51,673 nt of DNA from Candidatus Hydrogenedentota bacterium. Lineage in GTDB: Bacteria > Hydrogenedentota > Hydrogenedentia > Hydrogenedentales > CAITNO01. The DNA lies in contig JAAYBR010000083.1 of NCBI GenBank assembly GCA_012730045.1, forward strand, positions 1 to 51,673. The letters are read 5' to 3'. Every line of letters starts with the position of its first letter. Within the stretch, counting starts at the first letter, position 1. The notes below the pieces were generated by a model that saw only the letters and a program-made list of their open reading frames with translations, ran no database searches and had not been told where the DNA came from. Made by a program: the position numbers and the translations under genes. Shown in pieces: positions 4,496 to 26,844 of this stretch.

Positions 4496-4578
4496 GGTGT
4501 CACCCTCCGATGTCCGGCACGCTTCCGGCCCGGTTCCCCGCGGAAGGACAGGCGTCCCGGGGCCGGACCGAGACTGTC

Positions 4579-4607
4579 ATGGTATACCCGCGTCCCCGCC
4601 ATGGCAA
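4579..4607 (-). promoter_or_regulatory. Candidate promoter for the GH2/hydrolase unit
   Basis: On the minus strand TTGCCA (4602-4607) is separated by 17 nt from TACCAT (4579-4584). An overlapping TATACC at 15-nt spacing is an alternative -10. The start codon is 84 nt downstream. Confidence 0.4.
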
Positions 4608-4616
4608 CTTTCGGCG

Positions 4617-4625
4617 TGCTATGAT
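4617..4625 (+). promoter_or_regulatory. Extended -10 promoter for the first GH36 gene
   Basis: TGC-TATGAT forms an extended -10 element. No convincing -35 is seen. The expected transcript start near 4632 leaves about 25 nt before the ATG at 4657. It is back-to-back with the GH2 promoter. Confidence 0.5.
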
Positions 4626-4656
4626 GGCGCAGGGACGACCCCAGGGAGAGAACGCC

Positions 4657-7137
4657 ATGCTGTCCATTTTCGCCGCCGTGATGGTGGCCGCCAGTTTCGG
4701 AGCCGGGGACGAGGGGGACCTGAACGCCGCCTGGGCGGCGCGGGCCTTTTCGGACAACGCGGACCGCCTGTCCCCCGGCCGGGTGGCTGTCCTATACGAG
4801 GACAGCGTCGGGGAGACGAAGTTCGGCGTGAACTCGGTGGGGAAGCCGCTGCGGCTGGGGGAGAAGACCTTCGCGCACGGCGTCGGGGTGAACGCCCGCT
4901 CCGTGCTGCGGGTTCTGCTCCCCGGTCCGGGACGGATGTTCCGCGCCGGGGTCGGTCTGGACCGCAATGTGGACGGATCCCCCGCCTCGGTGCGTTTCCG
5001 TGTGGAGGCGGGCGGACGCGTTCTCTTCGAGACCGACGTCCTCCGGCCGGACAGCGCGCCGGTGCCGGTGGAGGCGCCCCTGGGAGGCGCAACGGCCCTT
5101 GATCTGATCGTGGACAACGGGGGCGACACCCGGTCCTTCGATCAGGCCGACTGGGCGGACGCGCGGGTGCTGCTGGAGGACGGGAAGGAGGTCTATCTGG
5201 ACGACCTCGCCCGGGGCGACGCCCCCGCCGTGGTGTGGCCCTTCTCCTTCGTCTACGGGGGCCGGCCGTCTTCTCAACTGCTTCCCTCCTGGACCCGCCG
5301 GGCGGAAGTTGCAGACGTGGAGGGCGGACAGCGGCGCACGGTCACCTTCACCGATCCGGAGACGGGGCTGGAAGTGCGCGCCGTGGCCACGGTTTTTGCG
5401 GACACGCCGGGCGTGGACTGGACCGTGTACTTCACCAACACGGGGACGGCCGACACGCCGGTCCTGGAACAGGTGCGCGCGCTGGACGCGGCGTTCCCTC
5501 TCGCGCAGGGTTCCCCGGCGATGTTCCACAGTCTGCGCAGCACCTGCGGCGTGGACGACTGGCAGCCGTTCAGCGAGGCTCTGCCCGCGGGCCAGCGGCG
5601 GGCCTTCGCGCCCACGGCAGGCCGCTCCTCCCTCGGGGCCTGCCCGTTCTTCGACGTCCAATGGGCGGGCGGCGGCGCAACGGTGGGCATCGGGTGGACC
5701 GGCCAGTGGGCCGCCGCCGTGGAGAACCGGGACGGCACGGTCGCCCTCCAGGCCGGGATGCAGACCATGCACCTGTCCCTGAAACCCGGCGAGACCGTCC
5801 GGACACCGCGCATCCTGATGATGCAGTGGTCCGGCGACGACGTGGAGCGCGCGCACAATCTCTGGCGCGGCACCATGCTCCGCCACATCACGCCGCGGGT
5901 CCGGGGGGAGGTGGTCGTTCCCCCGATCGCCCATCTGACCACGGCGTTCTATGAGATGGACAAGGCGACCGAGGCCGACGCGCTGTCGCATCTGGACGCC
6001 TGCAAGGACCTGGGCTTCGAGTGCTACTGGCACGACGCGTACTACGGGCGAGACGACTTCCCCACGGTGGGCAACTATGTCCTTCCCGTGGCGCGCGGAT
6101 TCAACAGCACGCGGTATCCGAACCAGATGAGGGTCATCGCCGAGGCCGTCCACCGTTCGGGACTCGACTTCCTGATGTGGTTCGAGCCCGAGCGCATCTG
6201 TCCGGGCACGCTGATGGCGCTGGAGCACCCTGACTGGGTGGTCCTGCCCGACGGCGGCGGCTGGGGCATGTTCAACCTCGCCGTACCGGAGGCGCGGCGG
6301 CACATCACGGACTACGTCAACGGCCTGATTGACGCCTACGGCCTGAAATGGGTCCGCATTGACAACGCCGTGCAGTACACCCCCCTGTGGGCGAAACTCG
6401 ACGCCGCCGCCGGACCGGACCGGGTCGGCCTGGCGGAAATCCGCTATGTCGAGGGCCTGTACCGGTGGTGGGACGACCTGCGCGCCGCGCACCCGGACCT
6501 CGCCGTGGACAATTGCGCCTCCGGCGGCGGACGGATTGACTTGGAACTGTGCGCCCGCGCCCTGCCCCTGTGGCGGACCGACGCCACCATTGCGCCCCTC
6601 ATGCGCGGGGACTCCCTCCAGGCGGCGCTGCAGAACCAGGTCATGACCGCCGGACTCAGCCGCTATGTCCCGTTCAACGTGAGCGGGCAGATGGGCGCCG
6701 ATCCCTACAGCTTCCGCAGCGGGTTCAACGGGGGCATCTCGTTCTGCGAGGATGTGCGTCCCGCCGGATATCCCCGCGAAACGCTGCGCGCCGCTATTGC
6801 CGAGGGCAAGCGCATCCGGAAGTATTTCTTCGGGAATCAATACGCCCTCACAGACATCACCACCAGCCCCAAGGACTGGTGCGTTCTCCAGTACCACCGG
6901 CCCGCCGAGGGGGACGGGATGATCCTGGCTTTCCGGCGGCCCGCCTCCCCCTACACGGGATTCACCTGCGCGCTCCAGGAGATGGACGATGCGGCGGACT
7001 ACGAGGTGACCGTTTCGCCGGGATATACGCAGGGCCCCGCCACGGTCATGAAGGGGTCTGCGCTGCGCGCGCTCGTGATCCCGACCAGCGCGGCCCCGGA
7101 ATCCGTGCTCGTCGAATACCGGCGGCTTTCCAAGTAG
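4657..7137 (+). CDS. NPCBM-GH36 alpha-galactosidase-like enzyme (paralog 1)
   Basis: An 826-residue protein with an N-terminal signal-like segment (MLSIFAAVMVAASFG). Residues about 35-180 match an NPCBM carbohydrate-binding module (FAHGVGVNARS, FRAGVGLDRN, DQADWADARV). A GH36/GH-D-type TIM barrel follows (LMWFEPERI, GLKWVRIDNA, NCASGGGRIDLEL, LWRTDA). By family analogy the nucleophile is Asp569 in RIDNA and the acid/base Asp642 in WRTD. Alpha-galactosidase is the default assignment; alpha-N-acetylgalactosaminidase or a related exo-activity is possible. The start at 4657 is chosen for GGGAGAG at the right distance; longer in-frame starts upstream run through the promoter. It shares its architecture and several blocks (RYVEGLYR, DNCASGG) with the protein at 16215-18713. 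Confidence 0.9.
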   Translation: MLSIFAAVMVAASFGAGDEGDLNAAWAARAFSDNADRLSPGRVAVLYEDSVGETKFGVNSVGKPLRLGEKTFAHGVGVNARSVLRVLLPGPGRMFRAGVGLDRNVDGSPASVRFRVEAGGRVLFETDVLRPDSAPVPVEAPLGGATALDLIVDNGGDTRSFDQADWADARVLLEDGKEVYLDDLARGDAPAVVWPFSFVYGGRPSSQLLPSWTRRAEVADVEGGQRRTVTFTDPETGLEVRAVATVFADTPGVDWTVYFTNTGTADTPVLEQVRALDAAFPLAQGSPAMFHSLRSTCGVDDWQPFSEALPAGQRRAFAPTAGRSSLGACPFFDVQWAGGGATVGIGWTGQWAAAVENRDGTVALQAGMQTMHLSLKPGETVRTPRILMMQWSGDDVERAHNLWRGTMLRHITPRVRGEVVVPPIAHLTTAFYEMDKATEADALSHLDACKDLGFECYWHDAYYGRDDFPTVGNYVLPVARGFNSTRYPNQMRVIAEAVHRSGLDFLMWFEPERICPGTLMALEHPDWVVLPDGGGWGMFNLAVPEARRHITDYVNGLIDAYGLKWVRIDNAVQYTPLWAKLDAAAGPDRVGLAEIRYVEGLYRWWDDLRAAHPDLAVDNCASGGGRIDLELCARALPLWRTDATIAPLMRGDSLQAALQNQVMTAGLSRYVPFNVSGQMGADPYSFRSGFNGGISFCEDVRPAGYPRETLRAAIAEGKRIRKYFFGNQYALTDITTSPKDWCVLQYHRPAEGDGMILAFRRPASPYTGFTCALQEMDDAADYEVTVSPGYTQGPATVMKGSALRALVIPTSAAPESVLVEYRRLSK

Positions 7138-11490: not shown

Positions 11491-12954
11491 TCACCCGGAG
11501 AGGCTCCAGCCCTCCCGGAACGTGGGGTGCAGGAGGCGGCTTGCCTCCGGCGCGTTGACGAACTCCATCTTTTCGGGGTCCCACCGGAGTTTCGCGTCGG
11601 CGCGGATGGCCGCAATGCCCAGGGTGACAATCTCGGTCAGGGGGCCGCTGTAGTCGAAGTTGGCCGCCGCAGGCTCGCCGCCCCGGCAGGCCAGCACAAA
11701 CTCACGGTAATGGCCGGGCGAGCGTTTTAGGGTCTGGGGCGGGCGCGTGTAGGCGTCCATGCGCGCCTTCGGGAGCAGTTGCGGGTCGCTGCCGTAGCAC
11801 CCGCACATGAGCTTGCCCTTGTCGCCGATGAACAGCACGCCGCCGTCCCCGTCGCCCATGGGGCGGCCCGGCTCCAGCTCGTCCGGACGCGGCGGCATGA
11901 GCCCGCCGTCATGCCAGGTCAGCACCAGGGGCGGCATGCCCTCCCGCGCGGGAAAGGTCCAGCGGACACTGGCCGCCGCCGTGGTGGTCTCGGGATGCAA
12001 CCGGCCCTTGGCGTATTCCATGGCGTGGGGGGTCGCCTTGGACGGCAGCCGCACGGAGCTGGCCTCGACCGTTTCCGGACTGCCCAGTTTCAGGGCCCAC
12101 ACCACGGGGTCGAGAATGTGGCAGCCCATGTCGCCCAGGGCGCCGGAGCCGAAATCCCACCAGCCGCGCCAGATGAAGGGCAGATAGGCGGGATGGTAGG
12201 GGCGGTATGGCGCCGGGCCGATCCAGCCCTCCCAGTCGAGTCCCGGCGGAACCGGCGGCGTGTCCTCGGGACGGTCAATGCCGTGGGGCCACCAGCCGCC
12301 GGGGCGGTTGGTCCAGGCGTGCACCTCGCGGACCTCGCCGATCGCGCCGTCCCAGATCCACTCGCAGACGAGGCGGATGTCCTCCTTCGCGTGGCCCCAG
12401 TTGCCCATCTGCGTGGCGACCTTGGCGTCCCGCGCGGCCTGGGTCATGGCGCGCACCTCGGCCACGGAGTGGGCCAGCGGCTTCTCGCAGAAGACATGCT
12501 TCCCCTTCCGCATGGCGGCGAGGGCCGCGACGGCGTGCACGTGGTCCGGGACGGTGATCACCACCGCGTCAATGTCCTCGCGCTCGTCCAGCATCTGCCG
12601 GAAGTCCGTGTACGCCGCGCAGCCGTCCTCCGGCCGGCCCGTGTGGCCGTAATAGTCGTTCGCCATGCGGCGGCCCGGCTCGCGGCCGGCGATGCCGCGC
12701 CCGATGTAGTTTCCCTCCTCGTTCACGTCGCACACCGCCACCACCCGCGCGTCCGGATCCTGCAGAAACACCTCAAGATTGTAGATGCCCTGCCACCCCA
12801 CCCCAATGAGGGCCACGTTGAGCTTCTCATTCGCCGGGGTCTTGCCCTGCGCCCGCGCGCCGCGGGGCAGGGCGGAGAACGCGGCCAGCGCCGCAGCCCC
12901 CCGCAAAAAGGTCCGGCGCGACGGCCTGCCCGCTGACTGCCCCGTGGACGACAT
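11491..12954 (-). CDS. Tat-exported Gfo/Idh/MocA-family oxidoreductase
   Basis: A 487-residue protein with a twin-arginine signal SRRTFLRGAAALAAFSALP. The NAD(P)-binding loop is GVGWQG (51-56), the catalytic-type EKP is at 157-159, and GDMGCHI (274-280) contributes the substrate-site His. Tat-exported members of this family with WWPHGIDRPEDTPPVP-like segments are abundant in PVC-type bacteria and their substrates are mostly unknown. I use the ATG at 12954, with GGAAGAG close upstream; a longer reading frame extends 39 codons into an Arg-rich unlikely N-terminus. It is divergent from the sugar isomerase at 13206, sharing a back-to-back promoter region, so both probably act in one sugar or cyclitol pathway. 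Confidence 0.9.
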   Translation of the reverse strand: MSSTGQSAGRPSRRTFLRGAAALAAFSALPRGARAQGKTPANEKLNVALIGVGWQGIYNLEVFLQDPDARVVAVCDVNEEGNYIGRGIAGREPGRRMANDYYGHTGRPEDGCAAYTDFRQMLDEREDIDAVVITVPDHVHAVAALAAMRKGKHVFCEKPLAHSVAEVRAMTQAARDAKVATQMGNWGHAKEDIRLVCEWIWDGAIGEVREVHAWTNRPGGWWPHGIDRPEDTPPVPPGLDWEGWIGPAPYRPYHPAYLPFIWRGWWDFGSGALGDMGCHILDPVVWALKLGSPETVEASSVRLPSKATPHAMEYAKGRLHPETTTAAASVRWTFPAREGMPPLVLTWHDGGLMPPRPDELEPGRPMGDGDGGVLFIGDKGKLMCGCYGSDPQLLPKARMDAYTRPPQTLKRSPGHYREFVLACRGGEPAAANFDYSGPLTEIVTLGIAAIRADAKLRWDPEKMEFVNAPEASRLLHPTFREGWSLSG

Positions 12955-13069
12955 CCCGACTCTTCCCGCTCCGTTCACCGCATTGCCCTCCCCGCCGGCC
13001 GCCTTGCGGACTCTCCGCGCGCGCCGTCGGTTCCGTGTGTTAAAGAAACCTGTCCGAAACGCCGGGGTC

Positions 13070-13099
13070 ATTAGAGCACCGGGCCGTCCCTGACTTCAA
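13070..13099 (-). promoter_or_regulatory. Promoter for the Gfo/Idh/MocA gene
   Basis: On the minus strand TTGAAG (13094-13099), an 18-nt spacer and TCTAAT (13070-13075). The leader to the ATG at 12954 would be about 110 nt. Confidence 0.5.
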
Positions 13100-14245: not shown

Positions 14246-14845
14246 ATGAATCGGGGTTTGGACAGCCAACAACTGGATGCCGCGTTCCGGATAATGAACG
14301 GGCTGCTCGTGCGGTCTGAAGCGCCACCGGTGCATCTTGTGGTGTGCGGCGGGGCCGCCCTTATTGCAGCCGGATTGATTGCCCGCACAACCCGCGATGT
14401 GGACATTGTGGCGCTGCTGGAGGACGGCCGTCTGGCAAGCCCATCCCCTCTGCCGCCCCATCTGCTGCTCGCCGCGGAGCAAACCGCCGAGGCGCTTCAG
14501 CTGCCAAAGGACTGGATCAACAACGCCCCCAGCCGAAACAAAGGGGGCCTGTTTCAAATGGGCCTGCCGGAAGGACTTCAGGAACGCCTTCTCCCCCGAA
14601 ATTACGGCGCCTGTCTGACAGCGCACTTCATCGGAAGACTCGACCAGATTCATTTCAAACTGTATGCCGCAGTGGAGCGGGGCGGATATCACACGGCCGA
14701 TCTGCTGGCGCTGGGCCCGACGGACACGGAACTGGCGCAGGCCGCGCAGTGGGCGCTCGGACAGGATGTTTCCCGGGAGTTTCGCCAACTTCTGCGGCAA
14801 CTGTTGGAAACCCTTGGAAATGACGGAATCGCTGCGACAATTTAG
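14246..14845 (+). CDS. AbiEii-like/DUF6036-type nucleotidyltransferase
   Basis: A 199-residue protein with a minimal nucleotidyltransferase core. GG (35-36) in VCGGAALIAAG is followed by TTRDVDIVA, with Asp51 and Asp53 as the metal pair. The C-terminal part HFKLYAAVERGGYHTADLLAL, with Lys138 and Asp152, matches the conserved second block of AbiEii/DUF6036-type proteins. AbiEii is the toxin of type IV toxin-antitoxin and phage-abortive systems; toxicity here is inference. No strong ribosome site precedes the ATG, which abuts the inverted repeat. The 3' end overlaps the next gene by 26 nt, so the two are translated together. Confidence 0.75.
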   Translation: MNRGLDSQQLDAAFRIMNGLLVRSEAPPVHLVVCGGAALIAAGLIARTTRDVDIVALLEDGRLASPSPLPPHLLLAAEQTAEALQLPKDWINNAPSRNKGGLFQMGLPEGLQERLLPRNYGACLTAHFIGRLDQIHFKLYAAVERGGYHTADLLALGPTDTELAQAAQWALGQDVSREFRQLLRQLLETLGNDGIAATI

Positions 14846-15830
14846 AGACGGCTTTCTGGACCTCCTGCTGGACTTTCTTTGGCGGGAATGGACCGCCCTC
14901 GGGGTTGCCGGACAACCCTCCCGGCCGGTCCGCCATGCGGTGGACCCCGAGGCCCTTTTTCTGTTCACCTGCGCCCTGGGCCTCCATGACCAGCGCCTGT
15001 TTGACGAGATGCTGGACTGGATGACGGTAAACGGCCGGTTTCTTAACATCCAGCGTCTAAGGAATCTGATCCGGAGCGGGGAGCCATGCGGCGGCCCGGT
15101 GGTTCCCGCAGTGGCCGATTGGATGGCCCGGTGGGAACACTCCCCGCGGTGGAGGCCGCTTGCGGGACCAACACGGCGGGCGGGCGGAAACACGCCCCTC
15201 TTCCTCCTGCCCGACGGACGCCCCCTCCCGGTGACCGGGGACAGGGACCCCGTTTTTCTCTCACACGGACTGGAACGAAACGCCGTGGTGCTCCGCAGAC
15301 TCTCCGGAGCGTTTCACGCGGACGCGCCGTCCTGCCTCCTTCTCAGGTTAAGGGCGCTGTTCGGCGTGGGCGCCCGTGCCGACGCGCTGGCGTATCTGGT
15401 GCTTTCCGGCGGCGGCCACCCGAGGGAGATTGCCCGCGAATTGCGCTACTCGCAGAAGGCCGTTCACGACGTGCTGGCGGACTTGGCCTGTTCGGGCGCC
15501 ATCCACTCAGCGAGGGCCGGCCGTGAACGGACCTACCGCATCAGTGCGGCGGCGCTTCCCCTTCTCGCGGGCGGGGCACCCCCCGCCGGATGGGTCAACT
15601 GGCCCGCCTTTCTTTCCATCGTGGGGACGGCGTGGGAAAAGGTGGAGGAACTGCGGAACGCCGGACTCGACCCGGAGATGGAGGCGGCGGAACTCACCCT
15701 TGCGTTGCGGCCCGTGATGCGTCGCCTGGTGGGCCTGTCCGGGATGCCGCCTCTCCAGCCTGTGGAGACGCTGGACGGCATTGCGCTGGCGGCCGTGTTG
15801 CAGGAGGCGCTTCGCAAGCTTGCCGCCTAG
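14820..15830 (+). CDS. Winged-helix DNA-binding partner of the nucleotidyltransferase
   Basis: A 336-residue protein of unknown family. Residues about 184-245 (GVGARADALAYLVLSGGGHPREIARELRY then QKAVHDVLADLACSG, wing RERTYRIS) form a clear winged helix-turn-helix. The first 180 residues are helical and include RQFRDGFLDLLLDFLWREW and ALFLFTCALGLHDQRLFDEMLDWM. The ATG at 14820 lies within the end of the preceding gene and is preceded by TTGGAA. By context it is a candidate antitoxin or autorepressor that binds the inverted repeat at 14214-14244. Its gene is downstream of the nucleotidyltransferase, the reverse of abiEi-abiEii order. Confidence 0.7.
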   Translation: MTESLRQFRDGFLDLLLDFLWREWTALGVAGQPSRPVRHAVDPEALFLFTCALGLHDQRLFDEMLDWMTVNGRFLNIQRLRNLIRSGEPCGGPVVPAVADWMARWEHSPRWRPLAGPTRRAGGNTPLFLLPDGRPLPVTGDRDPVFLSHGLERNAVVLRRLSGAFHADAPSCLLLRLRALFGVGARADALAYLVLSGGGHPREIARELRYSQKAVHDVLADLACSGAIHSARAGRERTYRISAAALPLLAGGAPPAGWVNWPAFLSIVGTAWEKVEELRNAGLDPEMEAAELTLALRPVMRRLVGLSGMPPLQPVETLDGIALAAVLQEALRKLAA

Positions 15831-16214: not shown

Positions 16215-18713
16215 ATGTTTCTTGCGATTGCGTCCCTGCTCTGCTGCGCCCCGGCCGGGGCGGTTCTCGACATTCCCCAGACGCCTGTTCAGGACGCCGT
16301 GATGGCGTCGGCGGCGGAAAGCGCGTCCCTGCTGGACTGGGCCGACCGCGCTTTCGGGAACCCGTCCGGCGTCGGGTCCGGTCTGGAACTCACGCTGCGC
16401 CGTCAGGACCACAGCGTCCTCCACGTCAACCGGTCGTGCATCGAGACGCCCCTGCGGATCGGCGGGCGCGCCTTTGACCACGGGCTGGGCACCCACTCCA
16501 ACAGCGAGATCGCCGTTCGGCTGCCGGACGGCGCGCAACGGTTCCGCGCCTTTTGCGGCGTGGACAACAACGATGACACGGGCGGCAAGCGTGGGAGCGT
16601 GGTGTGCTCCGTCGAGGTGGACGGGAAGGAGTGTTTCCGGAGCGATGTGCTGCGGGGCGGGGACGAGCCCGCCCACGTGGACGTCGAAATCCCCGCGGGG
16701 GCGAGCGAACTGGTTCTGAAGGTGGACGGCACGGACGACGGGCCGGCCTGCGACCAGACGGACTGGGCGGACGCCGAAATCCTGTTCGCGGACGGAACCG
16801 CGCGGCGGCTGGACGAGGGACAGTCGGACACCCTGCTGGGGGTGAACGGGCCGCCGTTTTCGTTTGTCTATGGCGGGGCGTCCTCGGACAGTCTCCTGTC
16901 CGGGTGGCAGCGCGTGTCGGAGCGGAAGGACACGGACGCGGGCCCGGCGTACGCGGCAACCTGGACTGACCCCGCCACGGGGCTCCGCGTGGCGGCGGAG
17001 GCCCGCGTGTTCGCCCCCTACGCGGCGGCGGAGTGGCTGCTGACCTTCACCAACACGGGCAGCGCCGACACGCCCATCCTGGAGAGCATCCAGGCCCTGG
17101 ACGTGGCGCTGCGCTCCGGATACGCGAAGAACCCTCTGCTTCTCCACCGGAACAGCGGCGACTCGTGCGACGACCGGAGTTTCCTCGAAAGCGTCGAGAC
17201 GGTGGCGGCGGGGAGGGCCTTCCGCATGGCGCCCGTGGGCGGGCGCCCGTCGAACCAGGCCTTCCCCTTCTTCCGTGTGCAGTACGGCGCGGAGCAGGTG
17301 GTGGCGGCGGTGGGCTGGTCGGGGCAGTGGGCGGCGTCGGTGGAGCGGTCGGGGGAGGGCCCCGCGCGGCTGCGCGCCGGGATGGAGGAGACCCACTTCA
17401 CGCTGCACCCCGGCGAGTCGGTGCGCTCGCCGCGCATCCTCCTGATGCCGGGGGGCGCCGACACATGGGCACTGCAGAACCGCTTCCGCCGCCTGATGCT
17501 CTTCGAGTATGTCCCGAAGGCGGACGGGCGTCCCGTGGCGCTGCCCGCGGCGCTCCAGTGCTTTGACCGGTATGTGTGGACCCGCGACGACTGGGCCACC
17601 GAGGCGGGGCAGCTCGCCGCCGCGCGCTTCGCCAAGTCCGCCGGGTTCGACACGCTCTGGCTCGACGCCGCGTGGTTCGAGGGGGGCTTTCCGAACGGCG
17701 TGGGGAACTGGTACTACAAGCCGAAGGCCTTCCCGAACGGCCTCAAGCCCGTCGGTGACCTCTGCGACGAATTGGGCCTGAAATTCGTGGTGTGGTTCGA
17801 GCCGGAGCGCGTGGCCAAGGGGTCGGAAATCGCGCGCGAACACCCGGACTATGTCTTCGGCGGGGGAGAGGGCGGCCTGTTCCGCCTGGACCTGCCCGAG
17901 GCCCGGGAGTGGCTGACGGAGCTGCTCTCCCGGCGCATCGCGGAGTCGGGCATTGACATCTACCGCAACGACTTCAACATTGACCCGCTGGATTATTGGC
18001 GGCGGAACGACGCGCCGGACCGGCGCGGCATCACGGAGATCCGGTATGTGGAGGGCCTGTACCGCATGTGGGACGACCTGCGGGCGCGGCATCCGGGGCT
18101 GATGATAGACAACTGCGCCAGCGGCGGCCGCCGCATTGACCTGGAGCTGTGCATGCGCTCCATCCCCTTCTGGCGCAGCGACACGAACTGCTCGCCCAGC
18201 CACTGCGACTGGAACCAGGCGCAGACGCTGGGGATGTGCCCCTATGTCCCGTTGAACATGGCCTGCGCCTGGCAGCCCGACGCCTATGAGATGCGCAGCG
18301 CGGGCACCGCCGGTATCATCTGCCAGTGGCACTACATGGACGAAAGCTTCCCCCTGGAGGAGGGCCGGAAGGCCCTCGCGGAGGTGATGGAAAACCGCCC
18401 CTACTGGTACGGTGACCTCTATCCCGTCGCGGGGTTCTCCCCGGACGAGGGGCACTGGAGCGCCTTCCAGTTCCACCGGCCCGACCTTGATGCGGGGCTC
18501 GTGCTGGTCTTCCGCCGCGCCAAGTCGGCCTACACCGGGCTGGCGGCGGGCCTGCGCGGCGTGCGCCCCGACAGATCCTACGAGGTCACGTTCATTGACG
18601 GGGACCACGGACGCACGGAAAAAACCATGACGGGCGCGGAGTTGGGCGACGCGGAACTGCGCCTGCCGAAAGCGCGCGGCAGCCTCATCGTGCGGTACCG
18701 CGCCGCCGGGTGA
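16215..18713 (+). CDS. NPCBM-GH36 alpha-galactosidase-like enzyme (paralog 2)
   Basis: An 832-residue protein with a short signal peptide (MFLAIASLLCCAPAGA). The NPCBM module spans about 35-200 (FDHGLGTHSNSEIAV, FRAFCGVDNND, DQTDWADAEIL). The GH36/GH-D barrel has VVWFEPERV, DIYRNDFNIDPL with nucleophile Asp586, NCASGGRRIDLEL, and WRSDT with acid/base Asp656. GGGAGG lies 9 nt before the ATG. The nucleophile context NDFN is the classic GH-D form, unlike the RIDNA of paralog 1, so the two probably differ in substrate. It is transcribed alone after the initiator tRNA locus, away from other sugar genes. Confidence 0.9.
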   Translation: MFLAIASLLCCAPAGAVLDIPQTPVQDAVMASAAESASLLDWADRAFGNPSGVGSGLELTLRRQDHSVLHVNRSCIETPLRIGGRAFDHGLGTHSNSEIAVRLPDGAQRFRAFCGVDNNDDTGGKRGSVVCSVEVDGKECFRSDVLRGGDEPAHVDVEIPAGASELVLKVDGTDDGPACDQTDWADAEILFADGTARRLDEGQSDTLLGVNGPPFSFVYGGASSDSLLSGWQRVSERKDTDAGPAYAATWTDPATGLRVAAEARVFAPYAAAEWLLTFTNTGSADTPILESIQALDVALRSGYAKNPLLLHRNSGDSCDDRSFLESVETVAAGRAFRMAPVGGRPSNQAFPFFRVQYGAEQVVAAVGWSGQWAASVERSGEGPARLRAGMEETHFTLHPGESVRSPRILLMPGGADTWALQNRFRRLMLFEYVPKADGRPVALPAALQCFDRYVWTRDDWATEAGQLAAARFAKSAGFDTLWLDAAWFEGGFPNGVGNWYYKPKAFPNGLKPVGDLCDELGLKFVVWFEPERVAKGSEIAREHPDYVFGGGEGGLFRLDLPEAREWLTELLSRRIAESGIDIYRNDFNIDPLDYWRRNDAPDRRGITEIRYVEGLYRMWDDLRARHPGLMIDNCASGGRRIDLELCMRSIPFWRSDTNCSPSHCDWNQAQTLGMCPYVPLNMACAWQPDAYEMRSAGTAGIICQWHYMDESFPLEEGRKALAEVMENRPYWYGDLYPVAGFSPDEGHWSAFQFHRPDLDAGLVLVFRRAKSAYTGLAAGLRGVRPDRSYEVTFIDGDHGRTEKTMTGAELGDAELRLPKARGSLIVRYRAAG

Positions 18714-20108: not shown

Positions 20109-20146
20109 CGGTTGCCCCTGGTGTCCATCACGAATCGGAGGTTTAC

Positions 20147-21730
20147 ATGCGCTCGTTGTCACGTCGTTCCCTGGCCGCCGGAGCGGTTTCGTTGAGCCTG
20201 GTCGCGGTGTTCCTGGCCGGGGGGGCGGCGTTCCGGTCCGCGTGCGCGGCGCCGGAGGGCGGGAACCGGGACCAGGCGGTCCGGACCCACCGCGCGGCGC
20301 TGCTGGCGGACCCCCAGCGGCCGGCGTACCACTTCACCGCGCCGGAGGGGAACTGCATGCCCTTCGACCCGAACGGGGCCATCCAGTGGAAGGGGCGCTA
20401 CCACCTCTGTTACATCTTTCAGGACGAGCGCGGCCACTGCTGGGGCCATGCGTCGAGCGCGGACCTGGTCCACTGGCGTTTCCATCCGCCCGCGCTGTTC
20501 CCCGCGCCGGGGGATGTGGACCGGGGCATCTTCAGCGGCAACTGCTTCGTGAACCTGAAGGGCGAGCCGACGATGCTCTACCACGGCGTGGACGCCGGGA
20601 ACTGCATCGCCACGAGCACGGACAACGATCTGGCGCGGTGGACCAAGCTCCCCTCAAACCCCATCATCCCGAATCCCAAGGAGGGGACGCCGGAGCACGG
20701 AAAATACTCCTCCTGGGACCCCCACGGCTGGGTGGAGGGTGACACCTATTACGCCATCTTCGGCGGGACGCCCGGCGCGGGCACGGCCGCCACGCTCTTT
20801 AAGGCGAAGGCGCTGGACGACTGGTCCTATGTCGGCCCGTTCCTGGCGAACGACATGCCGGGCATCGCGCCGGACGATGACATCTCCTGCCCGGACTTCT
20901 TCGAGATCGGCGGGAAGCACATGCTCCTGTGCATCAGCCACAAGCGCGGCGCGCGGTACTACCTCGGCGAATGGAAAGACGAGCAGTTCCATCCGGATTT
21001 CCACGCCTGGCTCAACTGGCCGGGCGGCACCTTCTTCGCCCCGGAGAGCCTGCTGGACGACCGGGGCCGCCGCATTTTCTGGGCGTGGGTGCTGGACTGG
21101 CGGCCCGGCATGGAGCCGCCCGCGTCCGGATGGAGCGGCACCATGAGCCTGCCCCGCCACCTCTGGATGGGGGACGACGGGCGCCTGCGCATGGCCCCGG
21201 TGGCCGAACTCGAAACGTTGCGCGCGAATCCGCGCCGGCTGGAAAACATCGCCCTGAAGGCGGGGGAGGAGCTCGCGCTGGACGCCGTCCGCGGGGACTG
21301 CCTGGAGCTGGCGCTGACCATCCGCCCCGGCGCGGGCGGCTCTGTCGGCGTGAAGGTGCGCCGGTCGCCGGACGGTCAGGAGGAGACCCCGGTCATCTAC
21401 GACGCGGCGGCGGGCACGCTCCGCGTGGAGCTGGCGAAATCCTCGGCGCGGCCCTATCTCCAGCACTTGGAGTTCATCATGGGCGGGCCGAACGGCCCGG
21501 TGACAAAACAGGAGGCCCCGCTGTCCCTTCCGGCGGGCGAGCCCCTCCGGCTGCGCATCTTCCTCGACCGGTCCATCGTGGAGGTCTTTGCGAACGACCT
21601 CCAGGCCCTCACCCAGCGCATAGACCCGTCGCGTCCGGATAGCCTCGGCGTGAGCCTCTTTGCCGCCGGCGCCGACGCGCAGGTGGAGGCGGTGGAGGCC
21701 TGGGACATGTCCCCCGCGAACCCCTGGTGA
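20147..21730 (+). CDS. GH32-fold secreted protein lacking the usual acid/base Glu
   Basis: A 527-residue protein with a Tat-like or Sec signal (SRRSLAAGAVSLSLVAVFLAGG). The five-bladed GH32 domain has nucleophile Asp74 in FDPNG and the stabilising Asp191 in WDPHG (the RDP motif). A C-terminal beta-sandwich follows (FLDRSIVEVFANDLQALTQR is the canonical GH32 C-module block). The EC motif that supplies the acid/base Glu reads SCPDFF, with Ser247 in the Glu position. Either another acid (Asp243-245) substitutes, or the activity is not ordinary fructan hydrolysis. GGAGG precedes the ATG at a good distance. No fructokinase or fructose transporter is nearby. Confidence 0.85.
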   Translation: MRSLSRRSLAAGAVSLSLVAVFLAGGAAFRSACAAPEGGNRDQAVRTHRAALLADPQRPAYHFTAPEGNCMPFDPNGAIQWKGRYHLCYIFQDERGHCWGHASSADLVHWRFHPPALFPAPGDVDRGIFSGNCFVNLKGEPTMLYHGVDAGNCIATSTDNDLARWTKLPSNPIIPNPKEGTPEHGKYSSWDPHGWVEGDTYYAIFGGTPGAGTAATLFKAKALDDWSYVGPFLANDMPGIAPDDDISCPDFFEIGGKHMLLCISHKRGARYYLGEWKDEQFHPDFHAWLNWPGGTFFAPESLLDDRGRRIFWAWVLDWRPGMEPPASGWSGTMSLPRHLWMGDDGRLRMAPVAELETLRANPRRLENIALKAGEELALDAVRGDCLELALTIRPGAGGSVGVKVRRSPDGQEETPVIYDAAAGTLRVELAKSSARPYLQHLEFIMGGPNGPVTKQEAPLSLPAGEPLRLRIFLDRSIVEVFANDLQALTQRIDPSRPDSLGVSLFAAGADAQVEAVEAWDMSPANPW

Positions 21731-21854: not shown

Positions 21855-23816
21855 CTATTCCGCCGCCGCAGGGTACCGGTAGAGCGTGACGCTGTAGGGC
21901 AGGACGCTCAGGGTGCCGGTGAAGGCCCCGCAGTCCACGGGCCGGACGGTGATGGTGTCGGGGTGGTTCTCGTCGTTGTGGGCGTCGGGGTCGTCGTTCT
22001 GGATGGTCCACGCGGCGCCCGCGCCGTCCAGCTTCGCGCCTTTGAGGTCCACCTTAACATCGAGGGGCTTGTCCGTGGTGTTCACCACGGCGAGGGTGAG
22101 GGCCTTCCGGTCCCCGGTCCACGCGGCGGCGACGTCCGCATGGTCCATCTTCTCCTCCACGGCCACGGGGACGGTGCCGAAGTGCTGCCGGTAGAGCACG
22201 AGAACGTGGCCGGTGCTTTCGAAGAAGAGCCCCGTGCGGGTGGTCTTGATGGCCCCGATCACGTTGACGGTCTGCGCGTAGTTCGCCATGTAATAAAGGT
22301 CGCTGTTGCGGAACAGGGCGTGGAGGGCGGCGGCGCAGCCGAGGGCGTCGCGCATGAAGTAGCGCACGCCCAGCTCGCCGTAGACGTTGGGGCCGTACCA
22401 GTAGTTCCACTCGTCGAGGGCCAGCCGGATGTCCTTCCCCTTCAGCGCGCCGATGGATTTCCGGTATCCGCGGTGCTTGCCCGCCAGCTCCTCGATCTGC
22501 CGCACCGCCTCGTTGACATGGTCCGTCACGTCGTCCTTGCGCTGCCAGTACAGGTGCTCGCTGAGGAGCTCCATGTGGTCCGGGCAGTGGGTGAGCATGG
22601 TCTCGCTCCATTTCCCCGCGCTGCCCACACCGACGCATTTCGCCTCCGGCGACACGGCGCGGATGGCCTCCACAAAGGTGTTGTGCTTCTTGACGTACTC
22701 CTCCAGGGGCATGTGGCCGAGCTGCCAGTCGCCGTACATCTCGTTGCCCACGGCCCAGAAGGCGACCTTCCAGGGTTCGGTGCGGCCGTTGGCGGCGCGG
22801 CGCGCGCCCTCCGGCGTGTCCGCCGCCCCGGTGAGGTACTGCACCTCCGCCGTGGCGGAGGCGGCGTCGCCGAGGCCCGTGTTCAGGGCGATGTACGCCT
22901 CCGTGTTGATCAGCTCGCACAGGCGCATGAACTCGTGGATGCCCACGTCGTTGTGCTCGACGCCGGTCCACGCGGGGTTCTTGCGGGGCGGGCGCTTGTC
23001 GCGGTCGCCGATGCCGTCGCGCCAGTCGTAGCCGCTCACAAAGTTGCCGCCCGGCCACCGGTAGACCGGGGAGTTAAGCTCCTTCAGCGCGGCCAGGGTG
23101 TCCGGACGGAACCCGTCCACGTTGTCCGCCGGCATGAGGGACACCGTGCCGATCCGCACCGCGCCCGCGCCGTGGCAGCGGACGGCCAGCCGCGCGTCGT
23201 CGCAGTCCGCTCCGGCGGTCAGGGTGAAGGGGTGCTTCGTGAAGGCGTCCGGCGGGTTCTCCACCGCCGCCACCGCCTCGCCGCCCTCCCACTGGAGGGC
23301 CACCTCGACCTTCGTGACGCCGGGGGCGGCCTTCAGGATGATGTACCCCGTGTAGGCCCTGTCCTTCAGGACGCCGAGGCGGGGGTGGTAGATGCCGCGC
23401 GGCTCCGCCGACCCGTCCAGCGCGATGACCGGGTCATGCTCCCCGACAAAGGGGCTGTCCGCCGCCATGGCCACCGCCTCCGGCGGGCCGATGATCTGCC
23501 AGGGCGAGGCCTTCAGGATTTCATAGGGGACGCCGTCGCCCTCCCACGAGACCTTCTTCCCCTCGTGCATCTCCCAGCCCGGTCCCTTGCCGTCCACGGG
23601 GAAGAAGAACTTTCGGTCCTCCAGCATCTCCGCCCAGATGCCGCCGTAGATGCAGCGGCCCAGATGCTCGATGAACTGGCCGTACACATAGGGGGAGACC
23701 GGCTCGCCGGTCTTGGAGGCGTCAATGCGGGCCTCGGACGGTGCCGCGCACGCGGGCAGCATGCAGCCTCCGGCCAACAGGACGAGCAGCGGGGCGTTTC
23801 TGAGTGCGGTGTGCAT
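21855..23816 (-). CDS. GH51 alpha-L-arabinofuranosidase
   Basis: A 653-residue protein. The hydrophobic signal (LLVLLAGGCMLPACA) allows either lipoprotein processing at Cys18 (weak lipobox AGGC) or signal peptidase I cleavage after ACA. Family blocks are YGQFIEHLGRCIYGGIWAEM, VYRWPGGNFVSGYDWRDGIG, WAVGNEMYG with acid/base Glu359, and LALDEWNYWYG with nucleophile Glu469. A C-terminal beta-sandwich ends in SVTLYRYP. It should release terminal arabinofuranose from arabinan, arabinoxylan or arabinogalactan. An AAGGAGAA site selects the ATG at 23816. It is a single-gene unit convergent with the GH32-type gene. Confidence 0.95.
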   Translation of the reverse strand: MHTALRNAPLLVLLAGGCMLPACAAPSEARIDASKTGEPVSPYVYGQFIEHLGRCIYGGIWAEMLEDRKFFFPVDGKGPGWEMHEGKKVSWEGDGVPYEILKASPWQIIGPPEAVAMAADSPFVGEHDPVIALDGSAEPRGIYHPRLGVLKDRAYTGYIILKAAPGVTKVEVALQWEGGEAVAAVENPPDAFTKHPFTLTAGADCDDARLAVRCHGAGAVRIGTVSLMPADNVDGFRPDTLAALKELNSPVYRWPGGNFVSGYDWRDGIGDRDKRPPRKNPAWTGVEHNDVGIHEFMRLCELINTEAYIALNTGLGDAASATAEVQYLTGAADTPEGARRAANGRTEPWKVAFWAVGNEMYGDWQLGHMPLEEYVKKHNTFVEAIRAVSPEAKCVGVGSAGKWSETMLTHCPDHMELLSEHLYWQRKDDVTDHVNEAVRQIEELAGKHRGYRKSIGALKGKDIRLALDEWNYWYGPNVYGELGVRYFMRDALGCAAALHALFRNSDLYYMANYAQTVNVIGAIKTTRTGLFFESTGHVLVLYRQHFGTVPVAVEEKMDHADVAAAWTGDRKALTLAVVNTTDKPLDVKVDLKGAKLDGAGAAWTIQNDDPDAHNDENHPDTITVRPVDCGAFTGTLSVLPYSVTLYRYPAAAE

Positions 23817-23932
23817 GGCGGGTTCTCCTTGTGGTTCGCCGCCCTTCGGCGGCCGGGTCGGTCGCACCAATCAGCATTGCACATCCGTTGGCCCTTTTTC
23901 CTCCCTGCCGCGGCTCCTAAGGGAGGACTCAT

Positions 23933-24277
23933 CGCAGAGACGCAGAGAACGCGGAGAGGGAGAGAGGATGGGGGGAGAGTACGCGGGCGCTCCGTGCTTG
24001 CCAACGCCGAGTGTCCGGCAGCGCGCGCGAAGCGCGCCTTGGGGTGCGGTAGCTTGCTGCCGCCTTCCAGACCGGGCACCGCGATGGCCCCGTCTTGAAC
24101 AATGAGTTTTTCATCGCGTGTATGCCCGCGCGCGGGCAAGCCCGCGCGAAGAAAGGCGGCAGCAAGCTACCGCACTCCAAGGCGCTTCGCGCTGTGTCGG
24201 CCGGGGCCGGTGCCTGGTTTACGGGGAGTCCTGTGTTCGTCTTTCTCCGCGCTCTCCGCGCCCTCCGCGTCTCTGCG
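23933..24277. repeat. Nested inverted-repeat island (CGCAGAGACGCAGAG type)
   Basis: Outer arms: CGCAGAGACGCAGAG from 23933 and its imperfect inverse ending CGTCTCTGCG at 24277. Inner arms: 24025-24067 (CCTTGGGGTGCGGTAGC, TTGCTGCCGCC) and inverse 24151-24192, differing by a 2-nt indel and two or three substitutions. The centre holds CCCGCGCGCGGGC. No protein of any size can be supported in it. It fills most of the 23817-24364 gap. Confidence 0.75.
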
Positions 24278-24328
24278 TTGAAAATGCCTTCGAGGAATGC
24301 ATCCACACCCCGGACACGGGGGGCGGGG

Positions 24329-24334
24329 TATAAT
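24329..24334 (+). promoter_or_regulatory. -10 element for the AGE-family gene
   Basis: A perfect TATAAT preceded by a G-rich stretch and without a clear -35. It lies 30 nt before the ATG at 24365. Confidence 0.45.
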
Positions 24335-24364
24335 CGCCGAAACGTCAAAATACGGAGGCCGTTT

Positions 24365-25552
24365 ATGGACGCCGCGCGCACTAAGGAACTGATCACCACC
24401 TACCGGGACGGGCTGCTGGGGGACACGGTGCCGTTCTGGATTCCCCGGTGCGCGGACCGGGAGCATGGCGGTTTTTTCACGGCCCTGGACCGGGACGGCA
24501 CGGTGATTGACACGGACAAGGGAATGTGGCAGCAGGGGCGCATCTCGTGGATGCTGGCGACGCTGTACAACACGGTGGAGCGGCGGCCCGAGTGGCTGGA
24601 GTTTGCCCGCCAGGGGATCGAGTTCATTCAGCGCCACGGTTTCGACGACGACGGTCAGATGTTTTTCCAGGTGACGCGCGAGGGCGTCCCCCTGCGCAAG
24701 CGGCGCTATGTGTACTCGGAGGCCTTCGCCGCCATCGCCCACGCGGCCTACGCGAAGGCGTCCGGCGACGGCGACGCTGCGGCGCGCGCCCTCGACCTGT
24801 TCCGCTCCTTCCTGCGCTATGCGAACACACCGGGGCTGCTGCCGCCCAAGGGCGTGCCCGGCTCCCGCCCCGCCAAAGCCATCGGCATCCCCATGATCAC
24901 CATCGGCGTGGCGCAGGTGCTCCGCGACACCCTCGGCGGGGCGGCCTTCTGCACCGGCGAGATTGACCGCTGCATTGAAGAAATCAGAAGCGACTTCCTC
25001 AGCGAGGAGTTCGGCTGCGTCATGGAGACCGTCGGCCCGAACGGCGAGTTCATAGACCATTTCGACGGCCGCACGCTCAACCCGGGCCACGCCATGGAGG
25101 CAGCGTGGTTCATCCTGCACGAGGCCCGCGTCCGCGGCGGCGATGCGGACCTCACGGCCCTCGGCTGCCGCATGCTCGACGCCATGTGGGACCGCGGCTG
25201 GGACCGGGAGTTCGGCGGCATCCTCTACTTCGTGGACGTCAGGGGGCTCCCCGTGCAGGAGTACTGGCACGACATGAAGTTCTGGTGGCCCCACAACGAG
25301 GCCATTATCGCGACCCTGCTGGCCCACCGCCTCACGGGCGATCCCAAATACGCCGAATGGCACCGCCTGGTCCACGACTGGGCGCACCGCCATTTCCCCG
25401 ACCCCGAGCACGGCGAGTGGTACGGCTACCTCCACCGCGACGGCCGGGTGTCCGTCCGCTTGAAGGGCAACCTGTGGAAGGGGCTCTTCCACCTGCCGCG
25501 CATGCAGTGGTACTGTTGGAAACTGCTGGAGTCGGCGACGGCGGATACTTGA
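24365..25552 (+). CDS. AGE-family epimerase/isomerase (N-acylglucosamine 2-epimerase type)
   Basis: A 395-residue cytoplasmic alpha/alpha-barrel protein without signal. Family blocks: GGFFTALDRDG, KGMWQQGRISWMLATLYN, YVYSEAFAAIAHAAYA, HFDGRTLNPGHAMEAAWF, HDMKFWWPHNEAIIA and HRDGRVSVRLKGNLWKGLFHLPRM. The conserved Arg, Glu and two His residues of the active site lie in these. Members interconvert N-acetylglucosamine and N-acetylmannosamine, glucose and mannose, or cellobiose and glucosyl-mannose; the length and PRMQWYCW ending do not settle which. GGAGG precedes the ATG. Confidence 0.92.
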   Translation: MDAARTKELITTYRDGLLGDTVPFWIPRCADREHGGFFTALDRDGTVIDTDKGMWQQGRISWMLATLYNTVERRPEWLEFARQGIEFIQRHGFDDDGQMFFQVTREGVPLRKRRYVYSEAFAAIAHAAYAKASGDGDAAARALDLFRSFLRYANTPGLLPPKGVPGSRPAKAIGIPMITIGVAQVLRDTLGGAAFCTGEIDRCIEEIRSDFLSEEFGCVMETVGPNGEFIDHFDGRTLNPGHAMEAAWFILHEARVRGGDADLTALGCRMLDAMWDRGWDREFGGILYFVDVRGLPVQEYWHDMKFWWPHNEAIIATLLAHRLTGDPKYAEWHRLVHDWAHRHFPDPEHGEWYGYLHRDGRVSVRLKGNLWKGLFHLPRMQWYCWKLLESATADT

Positions 25553-25603
25553 GCCCGCCCCCCCGCGGAAAACGCCCGGGCCGGGCACCGCGTTCGTGAA
25601 AAA

Positions 25604-25612
25604 TGCTAAACT
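25604..25612 (+). promoter_or_regulatory. Extended -10 promoter of the mtlD-E2-MNT-lpd operon
   Basis: TGC-TAAACT followed by a GCGTTTGCG motif. The same arrangement (TGC-TAGACT, then GCGTTTGCG) stands before yhbY at 39524-39532. The expected transcript start lies downstream of the ATG at 25603, which supports the TTG start at 25666. Confidence 0.45.
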
Positions 25613-25665
25613 ACCTGCGTTTGCGCGGCGGACAGACCGCTCCGCCGCCTGGAGATCCCCTCATT

Positions 25666-26844
25666 TTGAAGACAGCAGTACATTTTGGCGCGGGCAACAT
25701 CGGCCGGGGTTTTCTTGGCCAGTTGTATTTTGAGTCCGGGTACCGGACCGTGTTTGTGGACGTGGTGGAGGAGGTGGTGTCCGCCCTCCAGGCACGGAAA
25801 GCCTACCCTGTGGAGATCGTGGAGGAGGAGGTGTCCCGCATCCCCGTGGAGAACGTGGATGCCGTGGACGGGCGCGACCGCGAAGAGGTGGCCGCCGCCG
25901 TGCGCGGCGCGGACATTCTTTCGACGGCGGTGGGGGTGAACGCCCTGCCGCACATCGTGCCCGCGCTGGCCGAGGGGCTGCGGCTGCGGCTGGAAGCGGG
26001 GGCCGCGCCGGTCAATGTGATCATCTGCGAGAACCTGCTGCACGCGGGGCCGTTCCTGCGGGAGAAGGTGCGCGGGCGTCTGCCGGAGGCGCTCCACGCC
26101 GCGCTGGACGCGCAGGTGGGGTTCGTGGAGGCGTCCATCGGCCGCATGGTGCCGGTGATGACGGCGGAAAAGCGCGCCGGGGACCCGTTGCTGGTGTGTG
26201 TGGAGGCGTACTGCGAGCTGCCCGTGGACGGTGAGGCCTTCCGCGGGCCCGTGCCCGAGATCGCGCACATGAAGCCCCTGGCGAATTTTGGCGCCTATGT
26301 CGAGCGCAAGCTGTACGTGCACAACATGACCCACGCGGCGACGGCCTATCTCGGCCATCTGCGCGGGCATGAGTACATCTGGCAGGCCATCCGCGACGGC
26401 GCGGTGCGCGCGCATGTGGAGGCGGCGGCGGAGGAGAGCTGCCAGGCCCTCGCGGCGCGGCAGGGGCTGGATCTGGAGGCCCTGCGGGCACACTACCGGG
26501 ACCTGGTCCGCCGCTACCACAACCGGGGGCTGGCCGACCAGGTGTCCCGCGTGGCGCGGGATCCGGTGCGCAAGCTCGGCCGCGAGGACCGGCTTGTCGG
26601 CGCGGCGCTGCAATGCCTGGAGGCGGGAATCGCCCCCCGGGAAATCGCGTTTGCGGCGGCGGCGGCGGTCCGGTATGATGCCCCGGACGACCCCGGCGCG
26701 CTTCGTGTCCGGGAAATCCACCGACGCGGCGGCGTGGCGGCGGTGCTGGGTGAACTCTGCGGATTGCCGCCCGACAGCCCCCTCGCGGGGCTGATTCAGG
26801 CGGGCGAAACGGCGCTAACACAGGAATTTGGGGTGGCCCGCTGA
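25666..26844 (+). CDS. mtlD: Mannitol-1-phosphate 5-dehydrogenase-like protein (TTG start)
   Basis: A 392-residue NAD-dependent dehydrogenase of the long-chain mannitol dehydrogenase group. Starting at the TTG gives MKTAVHFGAGNIGRGFLG, the exact family N-terminus with the nucleotide-binding GAGNIGRG at residues 8-15. An ATG 63 nt upstream adds a non-homologous tail and lies at the predicted promoter. A GGAG site is present ahead of the TTG. Other family blocks are ICENLLHAG, GFVEASIGRMVP and KLYVHNMTHAATAYLG with the catalytic Lys and His. It would oxidise mannitol-1-phosphate to fructose-6-phosphate or a related sugar-acid reaction. It is the first gene of an operon with E2 and E3, an odd grouping. 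Confidence 0.8.
   Translation: MKTAVHFGAGNIGRGFLGQLYFESGYRTVFVDVVEEVVSALQARKAYPVEIVEEEVSRIPVENVDAVDGRDREEVAAAVRGADILSTAVGVNALPHIVPALAEGLRLRLEAGAAPVNVIICENLLHAGPFLREKVRGRLPEALHAALDAQVGFVEASIGRMVPVMTAEKRAGDPLLVCVEAYCELPVDGEAFRGPVPEIAHMKPLANFGAYVERKLYVHNMTHAATAYLGHLRGHEYIWQAIRDGAVRAHVEAAAEESCQALAARQGLDLEALRAHYRDLVRRYHNRGLADQVSRVARDPVRKLGREDRLVGAALQCLEAGIAPREIAFAAAAAVRYDAPDDPGALRVREIHRRGGVAAVLGELCGLPPDSPLAGLIQAGETALTQEFGVAR

Follow-up and report, generated by a model that had tools for sequence, protein, structure and literature searches.

Enzymes of glycoside hydrolase family GH32 are treated as possessing a fixed catalytic triad and acting on fructose, and automatic annotation would label the proteins of the clade described below as sucrose or fructan hydrolases. 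In AtcwINV1 (structure 2ac1), R148 of the RDP motif and Y279 of the YASK motif are named as the neighbours of the acid/base E203, and the RDP Arg is described as invariant throughout clan GH-J; in the same enzyme Trp47 binds O6' and Asp239 contacts the glucose of sucrose (PMC3360783, excerpts). In BT1760, Gln239, located 18 residues past the acid/base Glu221, fills the hole left by the E221A substitution (PMC6560043, excerpts). Other acids have been described in GH117, where His302/Asp320 takes this role, and in GH3 β-N-acetylglucosaminidases of the NagZ type, which use an Asp-His dyad not present in all GH3 enzymes (PMC11574756, excerpts). The β-galactosidase Lac161_ORF10, a GH-J-type propeller that leaves sucrose uncut, shows that such folds can accept other sugars (PMC5342196, excerpts). 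Within the open-access PMC literature (most subscription papers, CAZy and CDD lie outside this scope), no report of a GH32 clade devoid of the acid/base Glu was found, and the large clade described here is apparently uncharacterised.

The window analysed, a 51,673 nt stretch of a Candidatus Hydrogenedentota bacterium genome (contig JAAYBR010000083.1), carries an ORF at 20147..21730 (+ strand) encoding a 527 aa protein with an ATG start, preceded by a GGAGG ribosome-binding site read from the sequence at 20137..20141 (+). The N terminus was judged by eye to be signal-peptide-like, with a twin-arginine-like SRRSLA. A promoter and terminator scan detected no promoter-like site, and terminator-like sites were no more numerous than in shuffles. 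In Pfam the protein matched only GH32N (PF00251, E = 1.2e-44, model positions 1–307 of 307) and GH32C (PF08244, E = 1e-28), so that both the propeller and the C-terminal β-sandwich are present, and it missed the NCBIfam cut-offs for scrB_fam TIGR01322 (149.9 vs 356.4 bits) and beta-fruc_BfrA NF041092 (138.4 vs 900 bits). An AlphaFold2 model built from 16 sequences (mean pLDDT 84.9, pTM 0.87) had 3sc7 as its closest solved structure in VIA (Z 38.3, rmsd 2.4, 442 residues), tied with 7vco (Z 38.0), 1w2t and 1uyp (both Z 37.5), all of them GH32 enzymes; GH117 was absent among the best 50 structure matches listed. The GH32 fold proposed in an earlier sequence-only reading of this DNA was thus recovered by both approaches.

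The protein shares with the GH32 β-fructosidases of Thermotoga maritima (1uyp/1w2t), F. perrara (7vco) and AtcwINV1 the two-domain architecture at 23–30% identity, the nucleophile Asp of DPNG, the stabilising Asp of RDP and the FSG and CP strand context. In sequence alignments to 7vco and 1uyp, Asp74 (20366..20368, +) aligned with the nucleophile and Asp191 with the transition-state stabiliser, while Ser247 (20885..20887, +) was found opposite the catalytic Glu (iSCPD vs iECPD). These alignments bear out the sequence-only reading in its placing of Ser at the acid/base site, in its intact DPNG and in its run of Asp243, 244 and 245; its statement that WDP was intact holds for Asp191, but the GH32 motif is RDP, and the Arg is replaced by Trp190 (Trp190-Asp191, 20714..20719, +). 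The RDP Arg and the acid/base Glu, both defining features of GH32 within clan GH-J, are therefore absent from this protein. The Asn preceding DPNG is also altered (MPFDPNG for WMNDPNG), and the segment 21035..21046 (+) runs from Phe297, in place of the Tyr of YAxQ, to Glu300, in place of Gln/Asn. Alignment columns 247, 190 and 297 correspond to E203, R148 and Y279 of AtcwINV1, respectively, and this Arg is the one described as neighbouring the acid/base in that enzyme (PMC3360783, excerpts).

Sixteen relatives with 50–70% identity were collected from public genomes labelled Hydrogenedentota, Armatimonadetes, Omnitrophota, Victivallales/Lentisphaerae, Poribacteria, Verrucomicrobia, Planctomycetota, Dehalococcoidia, Pseudomonadales, Fimbriimonadaceae and Thermoanaerobaculia. 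As the motif [DE]D[IVL]SCPD was present in all 16 of these independently found relatives, a pseudogene, a sequencing error and mere chance were ruled out. A profile of the 16 was run through the genomes of four phylum-level groups and gave matches in 37 of 68 genomes of the window's own phylum (E ≤ 0.001) and, at E ≤ 1e-20, in 23/246, 22/240 and 56/151 genomes of the phyla of L014, L012 and L007, respectively, counts that include ordinary GH32 genes also reached by the profile. The resulting alignment of 139 rows (rows shorter than 300 aa and exact repeats left out; L018, excluded from A1 because the length of its match was not a multiple of three, represented by its open part) had a letter at column 247 in 138 rows, L091 being gapped there. 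Glu was present in 55 of them, none with Asp245. Among the 83 non-Glu rows, Asp245 was found in 80 and His265 in 81, the exceptions being L104, L109 and L155, the last with its Asp shifted by one place and Ala at 245.

A second sample, taken later, covered the phyla of L020 and L015 (matches at E ≤ 1e-15 in 23/199 and 37/201 genomes) and yielded 53 rows. All 31 non-Glu rows, assigned to the clade by residues rather than by tree and including near copies (L180 and L184 being one record), had Asp245 and His265 and were devoid of Arg190 and Tyr297; all 22 Glu rows retained Arg190 and Tyr297, and none had Asp245. Pooling gave 112 clade rows from about nine phyla and 77 ordinary rows. Asp245 (20879..20881, +) was present in 111/112 clade vs 0/77 ordinary rows, and His265 (20939..20941, +) in 112/112 vs 8/77. 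Conversely, Arg190 was retained in none of the clade rows vs 75 of the 77 ordinary ones, and Tyr297 in none vs 74. The nucleophile Asp74 was kept in every clade row with a letter there (111/111), and Asp191 in 111/112, the exception being L192 with Ala. Position 244 was acidic in most clade rows (E 82, D 25). At about 1.0 bit, columns 245, 190, 146, 297 and 247 best told the 69 clade representatives apart from the 44 ordinary ones. By its aligned residues this is a GH32-fold clade that fails two defining catalytic features of the family and carries a consistent set of replacements.

Position 247 itself was variable in the clade (S 52, A 41, M 16, G 2, T 1), which rules out the serine as a functional residue. 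The distinct subfamily suggested in the sequence-only reading is supported by a near-fixed residue set in 112 rows, whose representatives in the trees fall on one branch, but SCPDFF is not its mark; at the level of the alignment the marks are Asp245, His265 and the loss of the RDP Arg and the YAxQ Tyr. Loss of Glu247 outside the clade, with no gain of Asp245/His265, was seen in three rows, L104 (Asp), L109 (Val) and L260 (Ser), so sporadic loss occurs too. L260 (G024 contig 205) reads DSCMEF, keeps the RDP Arg and has an ordinary background; to judge from these residues it represents an independent loss of the acid/base and is perhaps a dead enzyme. As a control, the Pfam model PF00251 was found in 15/249 and 33/68 genomes of two phyla and provided 49 rows from 47 loci, of which 47 had Glu and the others were L229, a known clade member, and L260; since loci were served best Pfam score first, the clade is under-sampled in this control, which is silent on frequency.

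Phylogenetic reconstruction placed the clade on a single branch. A maximum-likelihood tree was built from 114 rows after removal of the columns around 243–248, 264–266 and 299–301, leaving out rows shorter than 400 aa or at least 75% alike; in it, a branch with an SH-aLRT support of 100 set the 69 clade rows apart from the others. A more careful unrooted tree of 47 rows, with the trait columns removed and three long branches and rows at least 52% alike dropped, grouped 18 clade rows on one branch (support 100/100) that was present in 200/200 bootstrap trees. Because the changes occurred jointly on a single branch, they represent one evolutionary event, and the rows are not independent trials; what the clade rows do show, as far as residues go, is near-unfailing retention of the new set since its origin. 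The near-invariance of Asp245 and His265 within the clade likewise means that covariation cannot probe their pairing.

Loss of the acid/base and both its partners, with the nucleophile and stabiliser kept, fits a rebuilt proton-donating side rather than decay. Going by these conserved residues, we put at about even chances the reading that the protein is an exported, probably active glycosidase of GH32 fold in which Asp245 and His265 form a relocated acid/base, and in whose subgroup the −1 sugar is not fructose. The microsite formed by the Glu, the RDP Arg and the YAxQ Tyr would have been replaced as a unit in a single large clade. Asp74 would still attack or act as a base and Asp191 would still bind sugar hydroxyls, while the Asp245/His265 pair, on the +1 side of the pocket, would donate a proton to the leaving group, assisted by Glu300 in the subgroup of this protein. 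The suggestion, made from the sequence, that one of Asp243–245 might substitute for the Glu appears to have been a good guess, given how rarely Asp245 varies.

The topology of the predicted model is compatible with such a pair. Strands 246–254 and 257–264 form a tight hairpin in it, which would return residue 265 beside 246; Asp245, two residues before the Glu site, would lie on the pocket-mouth side, and we infer that the two residues could meet at the leaving-group site, contacting one another and the scissile oxygen. In an alternative register, Asp245 may occupy the place of the Glu with a two-residue bulge before Cys248, and the same reading follows. Asp239 of AtcwINV1 aligned, via the D239A row of 2qqu, to column 264, adjoining His265. 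By spacing rather than alignment, His265 lies 18 residues past Ser247, as Gln239 does past Glu221 in BT1760. Against the pair, Glu300 would serve just as well in the subgroup, and roughly a quarter of the clade lacks it; clade row L155 has its Asp one place away, and the model itself was built from 16 sequences.

The described enzymes closest in strategy differ in detail. GH117 3,6-anhydro-L-galactosidases (PpGH117) likewise have a five-bladed propeller with a His/Asp acid pair, which in our protein is proposed only, and the spacing of Asp245 and His302 in PpGH117 is 57 residues vs 56 between Asp191 and Ser247 here, by residue-number arithmetic (PMC11574756, excerpts); the PpGH117 Asp would then match Asp191. 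However, GH117 belongs to another family and clan (GH-F) and is inverting, and its His302 is followed by the Asp 18 residues later, whereas here the Asp lies two residues before and the His 18 after the place of the Glu. The NagZ fold is unrelated and only the strategy is alike. Lac161_ORF10 differs in being of DUF377 type with KDP, rather than GH32N/GH32C. The ordinary β-fructosidases themselves are set apart by their Glu, Arg and Tyr, by the fixation of Asp245 and His265 in the clade and by the fructose-site Gln90, which is lost in the subgroup of our protein.

Of the alternatives, all of which we consider unlikely, the one that survives best assigns the acid/base role to Glu300 alone: the carboxylate would have shifted to the next blade (APES for YAxQ), and Asp245 and His265 would only bind the +1 sugar. 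Glu300 occurred in 82/112 clade rows, including the 42-row subgroup of this protein (which is partly defined by Glu300), vs 0/55 ordinary rows in the first sample and 0/22 in the second, most ordinary rows having Q, N or K at this column; it also lies three residues past the Tyr that neighbours the acid/base (PMC3360783, excerpts). Nevertheless, position 300 is S, L, T, R, I or A in 30 of the 112 clade rows, L128, L067 and the HAPSAT group among them; these rows too are devoid of Glu247, yet possess His265 and, except for L155, Asp245, which weakens Glu300 as a clade-wide replacement. In the 47-row tree, moreover, Glu300 mapped to an inner branch (support 90/82) and would be later than the loss of Glu247 if the root lies among ordinary rows.

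Ranking just behind in our estimate is a mechanism with no enzyme acid at all, in which activation comes from the substrate, its leaving group being good or acidic, or in which phosphate or another anion takes over from the base. Plant myrosinases have lost the acid/base Glu of GH1 and cut glucosinolates, and some His-dyad GH3 enzymes are phosphorylases. This mechanism leaves unexplained why Asp245 and His265 became fixed upon loss of the Glu, and the export signal speaks against phosphorolysis; the external anion offered by the sequence-only reading as a possible substitute is not needed.

That the protein is a non-catalytic relative, binding sugar without cutting it, we regard as still more doubtful. 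The acid/base, Arg and Tyr were all lost together, and a precedent exists in the defective invertases known in plants (PMC11821009, excerpts). The retention of Asp74 and Asp191 in the counts above, however, makes a dead enzyme unlikely, and the fixation of the new residues across many phyla argues for selection on a working site. Least probable of all is polarisation of the leaving group by a metal ion, rather than its protonation by a donor, with Asp245, His265 and perhaps Glu244/Glu300 as ligands: the invariant Asp and His, the near-invariantly acidic position 244 and the central metal of clan GH-F propellers (PMC9278983, excerpts) would suit it, but no metal-site motif was recognised and the literature covered states no catalytic metal for GH32 enzymes.

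The subgroups of the clade differ in residues that bear on the substrate. In the PF/PY subgroup (42 rows, including this protein), the Asn before the nucleophile is replaced by Phe or Tyr, and column 90 is Ile or Leu in 42/42 rows vs Gln in 75/75 ordinary rows with a letter, a Gln that we take to be the fructose-site Gln of GH32. Trp in the stretch matching the O6'-binding Trp47 of AtcwINV1 was seen in 0/42 of these rows vs 51/77 ordinary ones. With Gln90 lost, the sugar bound by this protein is perhaps not fructose. The HAPSAT subgroup (L031, L150, L152, L198–L200, L210–L213 and others) has Ala or Ser at the acid/base site, His at 297 and Ser or Thr at 300, and retains Gln90 in 23/24 rows and the Asn before the nucleophile in 21/24; judging from these residues, fructose is plausible for this subgroup and less so for our protein.

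A domain scan of 12 full-length relatives revealed a concanavalin-like LamG domain fused to the enzyme in seven, which is in keeping with secreted enzymes that degrade polysaccharides; two carried a 3-keto-disaccharide hydrolase domain. In one of the latter (L012:4540-7404) the clade GH32-fold domain stands behind 3-keto-disaccharide hydrolase and LamG domains, with the same arrangement in one more of the 12.

A bolder version, which we hold only tentatively and consider less probable than the reading above, is that the clade is an uncharacterised major branch of the invertase fold with the acid/base triad dismantled, Asp/His catalysis, a new sugar and possibly an inverting mechanism as in GH-F. 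If this were true, the branch would merit a CAZy family or subfamily of its own and provide a mechanistic link between clans GH-J and GH-F. In any case, the clade is a natural experiment in which a whole acid/base module was exchanged on one branch with the nucleophile kept, and close ordinary relatives across that branch permit swaps both ways. Members occur widely among uncultured bacteria, and many have secreted lectin-like fusions, which makes the actual substrate of the clade a blind spot.

The gene neighbourhood was dropped as a substrate guide: among 17 flanking genes at 10 of 16 relatives' loci (dehydrogenases, amidases, a sugar transporter, a helicase, DUF7133 and others), no shared neighbour was found except recurring concanavalin-like LamG domains. 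Within the window, 21 of the 29 picked ORFs were scanned in Pfam, and no fructokinase or fructose PTS was detected among them. The earlier statement that no fructose genes are nearby stands to that extent, but a mannitol-1-phosphate 5-dehydrogenase-like gene is present (25603-26844, +; 318 bits against a cut-off of 356, just below several curated cut-offs), with an AGE-family epimerase (24095-25552) as its neighbour. An α-L-arabinofuranosidase-like gene on the opposite strand (21855-23870) adjoins the GH32-fold gene, making an arabinofuranoside or other furanoside no more than a reasonable first guess at the substrate. A few kb away, a Gfo/Idh/MocA protein resembling the BT_2158 family of glycoside 3-dehydrogenases is encoded (11491-13071, −; 427 bits, cut-off 750), and together with the hydrolase fusion it provides a weak lead towards 3-keto sugars. 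The codon bias of the ORF at 14664-15830 (+, 388 aa) is gene-like, and nothing in Pfam or NCBIfam matched it. Other glycosidases are also present within the window, and an architecture of NPCBM plus melibiase occurs twice, in separate proteins encoded at 4249-7137 (+) and 16215-18713 (+).
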